Assembly: GCA_036275915.1 (NCBI GenBank) | Contig: DASUCV010000004.1 | Coordinates: 1-64,000 of the forward strand | Direction of reading: 5' to 3' | DNA: 64,000 nt | Source: Candidatus Polarisedimenticolaceae bacterium | Lineage (GTDB): Bacteria; Acidobacteriota; Polarisedimenticolia; Polarisedimenticolales; DASRJG01 | Shown: positions 27,316-29,360 of the stretch, piece by piece | How the letters are laid out: every line of letters starts with the position of its first letter | Numbering within the stretch: the stretch's first letter is position 1 | Translations under genes and position numbers: made by a program | Notes under the pieces: generated by a model | Database searches by the model: none | Told to the model about the DNA's origin: nothing | What the model saw: the letters and a program-made list of their open reading frames with translations, nothing else

Positions 27316-27321
27316 GTCACG

Positions 27322-27404
27322 GTGGCCGCAATCTTGTTGGTGGCTTCGGGCCAACGCGCAGAAACAAGAGCTGCTCAAGTGCCGACCAACAACCTCGCGG
27401 CCAC
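27322..27404. repeat. Imperfect inverted repeat GTGGCCGCAA...TTGTTGG, long form
   Basis: Arms 27322-27341 and 27385-27404 match in 17 of 20 positions, separated by 43 bases. They carry the same sequence as the short palindrome at 27809, so two copies flank the orphan gene at 27471. A weaker inverted repeat (CCATGGaGGCC ... GGCCATGG) lies further on at about 27432-27459. No other gene is seen in the 155-base gap. Confidence 0.75.
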
Positions 27405-27470
27405 AGAGCGCGATCCGTGCGATGCTTTGTCCATGGAGGCCATCCGACGACGGCCATGGGAGGCTGAGCC

Positions 27471-27803
27471 ATGAAGCGACCCCAGGCGATCTTCCGCTCT
27501 CTCGGCGTTTTTCTTCTCCTCGTCGCGACCACCGTCGGGATCTCGCGGTCGGTTTCTCCCGATACGACCGATGACAAGGCGGCGCTTCTAGCGCAGGTCA
27601 AGGATCTCGAGTCCCAGCTCGAGACCTGCAATCAGCAGATCACGAGGCTGCGAGCCGAGAACGATTCGCTGCGGGGCGTCTTGTCGGAAGTCGTCGCGAA
27701 ACAGGCGCGAGAGACTCCCAAGAATTTCGTTCCTTACGACTACAACGGCATGCGCTTCTACGTCGGACCGGCGATGCCTGGGCACGAGGTCCCGTCCAAG
27801 TGA
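27471..27803 (+). CDS. Small anchored coiled-coil protein of unknown function
   Basis: 110 residues: an N-terminal signal anchor (about 8-25), a coiled-coil-prone segment (about 35-75, LLAQVKDLESQLETCNQQI), and a short globular end YDYNGMRFYVGPAMPG. GGGAGG precedes the ATG. No family is recognised. It is bracketed by two copies of one palindrome family and is less GC-rich than its neighbours by eye, which could mean recent arrival. Confidence 0.65.
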   Translation: MKRPQAIFRSLGVFLLLVATTVGISRSVSPDTTDDKAALLAQVKDLESQLETCNQQITRLRAENDSLRGVLSEVVAKQARETPKNFVPYDYNGMRFYVGPAMPGHEVPSK

Positions 27804-27808
27804 CCAGG

Positions 27809-27847
27809 GTGGCCGCAAGGTTGTTGGACCAACAACCTTGCGGCCAC
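27809..27847. repeat. Perfect 19-bp palindrome GTGGCCGCAAGGTTGTTGG, short form
   Basis: Arms 27809-27827 and 27829-27847 are exact inverted copies around a single central base. It begins five bases after the stop of the orphan gene. It shares its sequence with the long form at 27322-27404. It may cap the 3' end of that gene's transcript or be a REP-like element. Confidence 0.85.
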
Positions 27848-27878
27848 GTAGGGAACTTCCCGGGTCCGTGGCGGTCTC

Positions 27879-27900
27879 TATAATCCGAGGCCCCTGGAGG
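27879..27900 (+). promoter_or_regulatory. -10 box and ribosome site of the DUF4139 gene
   Basis: A consensus TATAAT (27879-27884) and a GGAGG (27896-27900) precede the ATG at 27906. No good -35 is found 17 bases upstream. Unlike the leaderless cases, this gene has a conventional ribosome-binding site. Confidence 0.5.
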
Positions 27901-27905
27901 ACCCG

Positions 27906-29305: not shown

Positions 29306-29360
29306 AGAGGGGACAGCTTCCGAAACTCTTGAACGGCAAGTTTCGGAAGCTGTCCCTTCT
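29306..29360. repeat. REP-like inverted repeat, 22-bp arms
   Basis: Arms 29306-29327 and 29339-29360 pair with a single mismatch around an 11-base loop. The tip GGGGACAGCTTCC resembles GGGGACAGTAACC in the element at 14015. It fills the gap between the convergent DUF4139 and tyrS genes, where it could end transcripts from both sides. Confidence 0.8.

Follow-up and report, generated by a model that had tools for sequence, protein, structure and literature searches.

An orphan gene between two palindromes

The window, the whole 64,000-nucleotide stretch analysed here, is derived from the 4.53-Mb genome of a Candidatus Polarisedimenticolaceae bacterium (genome G000). A small gene encoding a protein of 110 residues lies between two inverted-repeat structures, in the gap between a PDZ/alpha-beta-hydrolase gene and a DUF4139 gene. 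The features of the locus, in which MITE denotes a miniature copy of a transposable element, are as follows.

27318..27851, no strand: the whole unit of 534 bp, taken as inserted, composed of a MITE, the orphan gene and a minimal MITE; delimited by its absence from the syntenic genome G001
27318..27408, no strand: left MITE, 91 bp, with terminal repeats at 27318-27341(+) and 27385-27408(-); pattern search
27409..27470, + strand: leader from the left MITE to the gene; sequence
27471..27803, + strand: passenger gene, 110 aa; coding score and AlphaFold2 model
27805..27851, no strand: right palindrome, 47 bp and without interior, two terminal repeats with fused inner ends, 27805-27828(+) and 27828-27851(-)
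27852..27905, + strand: spacer common to G001, forming the right-hand insertion edge before the DUF4139 gene; alignment

The left structure pairs GTGGCCGCAATCTTGTTGGT at 27322-27341 with ACCAACAACCTCGCGGCCAC ending at 27404, the arms being 19-20 bp long and the second occupying 27385-27404. The right palindrome has perfect 19-bp arms within a 39-bp core (27809-27847) with a 1-nt centre, and this core begins five bases after the TGA (27801-27803) of the gene. These inverted repeats, imperfect before the gene and perfect after it, are all present as the preliminary description had reported. The bracketing of the gene that it described also holds, and its 526-bp unit is to be extended to 534 bp since the true repeat reaches about four bases farther outward than the word first read, which places the outer limits at 27318 and 27851.

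The right palindrome is predicted to fold very stably as RNA (-39.1 kcal/mol, z = -7.6), and the fold of the left one is weaker (z = -2.3 only). A very stable hairpin five bases past a stop codon is what would be expected of a transcription terminator or an mRNA-stabilising structure belonging to the small gene and having no mobile origin. This explanation is nevertheless extremely improbable, as a T-run is absent, a terminator scan makes no call and the palindrome has the sequence of insertion sequence ends. An intrinsic terminator was rejected for want of the T-run; a secondary role of the palindrome as a hairpin is possible.

The 110-residue gene is supported as coding because its codon statistics exceed those of all off-frame pieces: its score of 0.25 per codon compares with at most 0.15 in 76 such pieces and falls just short of 0.27, the minimum for 19 true pieces. 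The leader contains GGGAGG, which resembles a ribosome-binding site, 7 bases 5' of the ATG, and a search of the same leader for a sigma-70 consensus promoter found none. The GC content of the gene is 0.609 and its GC3 0.782, where the corresponding ranges for six neighbours are 0.66-0.735 and 0.88-0.94, in line with the earlier remark that it is less GC-rich than its surroundings. The product is predicted to comprise a hydrophobic N-terminal anchor (residues ~5-25), a coiled coil (32-81) and a short beta hairpin (87-98), in a single-sequence AlphaFold2 model of modest confidence (pLDDT 74, pTM 0.44).

The protein belongs to no recognised family, as had also been noted from the sequence: only generic coiled-coil models from Pfam and NCBIfam were matched, all of them under their cut-offs, the best being DUF7310 (E 1.2e-5 and 26 bits, where the cut-off is 40). 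Searches of 60 relatives and of a collection of genome contigs, viral contigs, plasmids and phages gave no homologue. A search of 396 genomes of the phylum returned the protein itself and one weak match in G311 (E 2.9e-4, 38% over residues 30-81, within a 1315-codon frame), which was taken as mere coiled-coil similarity and rejected as a homologue. By these searches the protein appears to have no credible homologue and would be an orphan.

A terminal repeat, its insertion sequence and its miniature copies

The repeat takes the 24-base form CACGGTGGCCGCRAnnTTGTTGGT. A search of the window's genome for further palindromes, which the preliminary description had suggested, gave 11 sites for this pattern at up to three mismatches and 0 for the reversed-pattern control. 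The 19-base form matches 49 sites in the whole genome and its control 17; of the 49, only those with two mismatches or fewer, 13 in number, look real. The 10-base word GTGGCCGCAA alone is not significant in the window, where it has 8 matches at up to one mismatch, a count attained in 7 of 100 shuffles. Among 41 genomes of the class, 13 contain at least one 24-base site and the control gives 0 in all 41, which rules out a chance repeat for the 24-base form; in 8 of the 13 genomes the single site, at 2-3 mismatches, may be due to chance. Five genomes, the window's own, G001, G002, G004 and G031, clearly have several copies of the repeat.

Judged from sequence, each of the two palindromes consists of a pair of terminal inverted repeats belonging to what appears to be a poorly classified DDE-type insertion sequence (IS) of about 1.34 kb. 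The repeats bracket a transposase gene in the window's genome and in five relatives. On contig C11 of the window's genome a repeat pair 1.34 kb apart encloses a gene whose protein has an N-terminal four-cysteine zinc-binding region. Matches to the transposase protein were found in 26 of the 41 genomes, and at 6 of the 30 loci inspected (L043, L044, L045, L046, L052 and L070) an inverted repeat pair lies just outside the transposase gene, giving an element of ~1.33-1.42 kb. At L047, which is at a contig end, one repeat only accompanies the gene; the repeat is lacking at the remaining inspected loci, which are incomplete, situated at a contig end or more distant.

Intact homologues of the transposase are ~385 aa long and share four invariant cysteines, two invariant aspartates and a glutamate, the acidic residues being D139, D222 and E288 in the numbering of L045. 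The alignment kept the 13 of 16 loci that contain the motif RET.AFG, so the invariance of the glutamate is partly by construction, whereas the two aspartates and the four cysteines are free of this selection. The invariance of these residues in the intact homologues suggests that the protein is a DDE transposase. Among curated models (NCBIfam) those for IS1 and ISL3 come closest, both well under their cut-offs; with the IS1 model NF033558 the scores are 13-25 bits, where the cut-off is 100. None of the Pfam transposase models matches the family, to which the loci L034 (2133-2969), L044-L046, L048-L056 and L069-L072 belong, and the palindromes are thereby tied to a transposase family that these models do not recognise. 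Three papers found on MITEs and IS terminal inverted repeats in Acidobacteria contain nothing on this repeat in their titles or opening abstract lines, and the IS group looks undescribed. The copy of the transposase gene in the window's own genome is interrupted, its 278-aa frame ending before RETIAFGRR, which continues in another frame. The 534-bp unit is therefore probably immobile at present.

The family also exists in miniature form. Fifteen inverted pairs without a transposase, measuring 47-325 bp between outer edges, occur in four genomes (3 in G000, 1 in G001, 3 in G002 and 8 in G031), and four further pairs bear a transposase gene. The three in the window's genome are the two described here and one of 196 bp on contig C22. 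All eight pairs in G031 measure 175-178 bp, a uniformity that is the signature of a MITE family, and several contigs of G002 and G031 end soon after a repeat, as expected of assembly breaks at multicopy elements. Since the family has such transposase-less pairs, including the uniform set in G031, the left palindrome is read as a MITE of 91 bp and the right one as a MITE of 47 bp that has lost its interior: both are small, have repeats in common with the autonomous element and contain no transposase, and their family is multicopy in G031 and G002. Compared with the 24-bp terminal repeat, the arms of the left MITE agree at 22/24 and 21/24 positions and those of the right palindrome at 20/24 and 19/24, the outer right repeat being the most diverged of all (19/24).

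No target-site duplication was found on searching around the window unit and its two palindromes. Among 17 other elements of the family, one has an exact adjacent duplication (7 bp, G002 C60) and two have matches of 5-6 bp that are offset. Duplication is thus inconsistent across the family, transposase-bearing copies included, and may be inapplicable as a criterion. A separate observation concerns L106 (G001 C68:222-422), where a 201-bp MITE of the GTGGCCGC family is nested inside a GGGACAGCAACCTATTTC hairpin of another repeat class.

An empty site in a related genome

The preliminary description had proposed comparing the locus in related genomes for presence or absence of the whole unit, and in G001 the whole block is absent. 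This single comparison genome, the nearest relative available, belongs to the same family and to another genus, with protein identities of 54% and 68%. The order of the neighbourhood is identical in the two genomes: folate/queuosine genes, an amidohydrolase gene and a threonine-synthase-like gene on the minus strand are followed by the PDZ/hydrolase and DUF4139 genes on the plus strand, the names other than hydrolase and DUF4139 coming from reading the translations without a search. The gap between the last two genes measures 60 bp in G001 and 590 bp in the window, and the 60-bp spacer aligns over its full length with the window spacer once 27318-27851 is removed. The alignment scores 41, against a shuffle mean of 7.3 (sd 6.3), and none of 2000 shuffles scored as high. 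Conserved stretches within 27852-27905 are GGAACTTCCCG.., TATAATCC and GGAGGACC. The match starts at a common GGGAACTTCCCG beside the right palindrome, the first G of GGGAACTTCCCG being also the last base of the repeat.

Because the G001 spacer matches the window DNA outside 27318-27851, the limits of the insertion are placed at the outer repeats, and the extra DNA relative to G001 is the block between them, with edges defined to within ~0-2 bp. Absence from G001 also means that the gene is not conserved in place in all relatives, the finding that had been set against a mobile cassette beforehand. A search for closer relatives by means of the DUF4139 protein gave a best identity of 54% and none useful for synteny. 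In G006 and G008, considered as outgroups, the hydrolase gene is present and neither genome has a DUF4139 match at E <= 1e-20.

The polarity of the event, an insertion in the window's lineage and not a loss, rests on parsimony. The gene and both palindromes could instead be ancestral and have been deleted in G001, a scenario that is given some room by the single syntenic genome available for comparison and is nevertheless quite improbable. It would require both deletion breakpoints to fall exactly at the outer repeats, and apart from the weak coiled-coil match no homologue of the gene turned up in the 60 relatives or the 396 genomes of the phylum.

Origin of the unit and its likeness to known elements

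It is proposed that 27318-27851 is probably a composite non-autonomous transposable element, arranged as MITE, passenger gene and MITE, a reading held with appreciable doubt. Two miniature elements of 91 bp and 47 bp, each a terminal-repeat pair of an IS1/ISL3-like DDE insertion sequence, would flank a horizontally acquired gene whose product is a small coiled-coil protein with a membrane anchor. The outermost repeats, 27318-27341 and 27828-27851, would have been recognised by a transposase supplied in trans, and the block would have landed after the PDZ/alpha-beta-hydrolase stop codon and ahead of the promoter-proximal spacer of the DUF4139 gene, with neither neighbour disrupted. The sequences show that the repeats form the ends of an insertion sequence family, that MITEs of this family exist and that the block is absent from the orthologous site in G001; the movement of the block as one unit, the foreign source of the gene and the action of the transposase in trans are inferred. 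Two miniature elements bound the passenger DNA, and the block is missing as a unit from the one genome compared. In favour of the composite are this empty site, the lower GC and GC3 of a gene with no credible homologue, and the unlikely proximity of the two elements, as the probability of finding two of seven this close is 0.005-0.018 under three random-placement models, the number seven having been chosen after looking. Counting against it are the lack of a target-site duplication, the broken resident transposase, the diverged outer right arm and the single copy: the 4.53-Mb genome has no second copy of the 534-bp unit, and none of the paired sites listed in the 41-genome search is another gene-bearing repeat pair. 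The earlier suggestion of a non-autonomous mobile cassette is thus borne out as regards the absence of the block in G001 and the nature of the repeats as IS ends, while the missing duplication and the single copy leave its movement as a unit less secure.

The main rival is that two separate MITE insertions flank an orphan gene which arrived or arose in another way, so that the block never moved as one. Each palindrome alone is a complete repeat pair, both have arms that are about equally diverged (19-21/24, with one left arm given as 22/24), and elsewhere in the window's genome repeats are also found by themselves, both singly and in pairs; the absence of a common target-site duplication agrees with separate insertions as well, and on balance favours neither reading. 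This rival must be taken seriously and is on the whole unlikely, in view of the improbable proximity, subject to the same after-the-fact count of seven, and of the extra DNA relative to G001 ending 0-2 bp from both outer repeats, which independent events need not produce.

A broader proposal, and a rather doubtful one, is that, in this bacterial class, minimal palindromic pairs of the terminal repeats of an undescribed DDE insertion sequence family serve as a gene-capture device. Any small gene lying between two palindromes of 50-90 bp would then be moved by a transposase that acts on them in trans, and orphan membrane proteins could be delivered into gaps between conserved genes without damage. 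If this were true, the 47-bp palindrome would be near the smallest functional transposon end-pair. For the composite element itself, the locus would offer a concrete case of an orphan gene carried as a passenger into a conserved neighbourhood by two miniature transposon remnants. Should more such units be found, composite MITEs would represent a general means of entry for orphan genes in phyla that are poorly studied, beyond the resistance genes of plasmids.

Composite MITE elements are already known in other bacteria, and the present unit is another case with a clean empty site. TIME-COMP elements are composites of two Tn3-derived miniature elements that were caught in the act of transposing by means of a trap plasmid and that have 38-bp repeats and 5-bp duplications (PMC4133298). 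Like them, the unit has two non-autonomous miniatures bounding a core that is free of transposition genes, carries an orphan or passenger gene and is lower in GC; unlike them, it has IS1/ISL3-like ends, no visible duplication, a length of 534 bp only and a movement that is deduced (PMC4133298). Because its ends look IS1/ISL3-like and not of the Tn3 family, it would not be a TIME-COMP proper. Mobile insertion cassettes (MIC231 type; qnrD mic) are described as a passenger gene between IS repeats that is moved in trans (PMC3913671). They resemble the unit in the IS-type inverted repeats around a passenger gene, the absence of a transposase inside and the presumed action in trans, and differ in having one repeat per end and usually a target duplication, where the unit has a full repeat pair, a palindrome, at each end (PMC3913671). 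MITEs also occur inside gene cassettes and flanking integrons together with plasmid drug-resistance genes (PMC5444012). The association of MITEs with a mobilised gene is common to both situations, and the difference is that the gene here is a chromosomal orphan (PMC5444012).

The preliminary description had also considered REP-like elements. Short intergenic palindromes beside stop codons, together with two Y1_Tnp genes in the genome, would fit REP/REPIN-type repeats spread by a REP-associated tyrosine transposase, and REPINs resemble the palindromes in being short inverted doublets that form hairpins in intergenic DNA (PMC3116915). They depend on Y1 tyrosine transposases, in contrast to the repeat of a DDE-type insertion sequence seen here (PMC3116915). 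This origin is very improbable and the label is not retained: the identical repeat family bounds a DDE-type transposase gene, GTGGCCGC and TTGTTGG are absent at both Y1_Tnp (RAYT) loci, one of which is bracketed by a different repeat, GGGACAG, and there are ~11 sites, not hundreds.

Other repeats were observed in the same genome. A hairpin at 29310-29356 of the window, GGGACAGCTTCCGAAACT-loop-AGTTTCGGAAGCTGTCCC, lies just 3' of the DUF4139 stop codon and has 38 copies in the genome with identical 18-bp arms (control 0); the loops are almost all different, mostly 9-11 nt long, which is odd for copied elements given the identical arms. At L255 (G000 C1:148699-149031) a Y1_Tnp (RAYT-like) gene lies inside an inverted GGGGACAGTAACCGAGTTTTTCTTACC pair, which links the GGGACAG hairpins to a tyrosine transposase. 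At L041 (G000 C4:125446 and 126521) a sequence resembling the 3' half of a tRNA gene, ATTCAGGATCTAGTGGGCGCAAGCCTGTCGGGGTTCGA, recurs ~1.07 kb downstream, a layout like that of an integrated element with its attachment sites.
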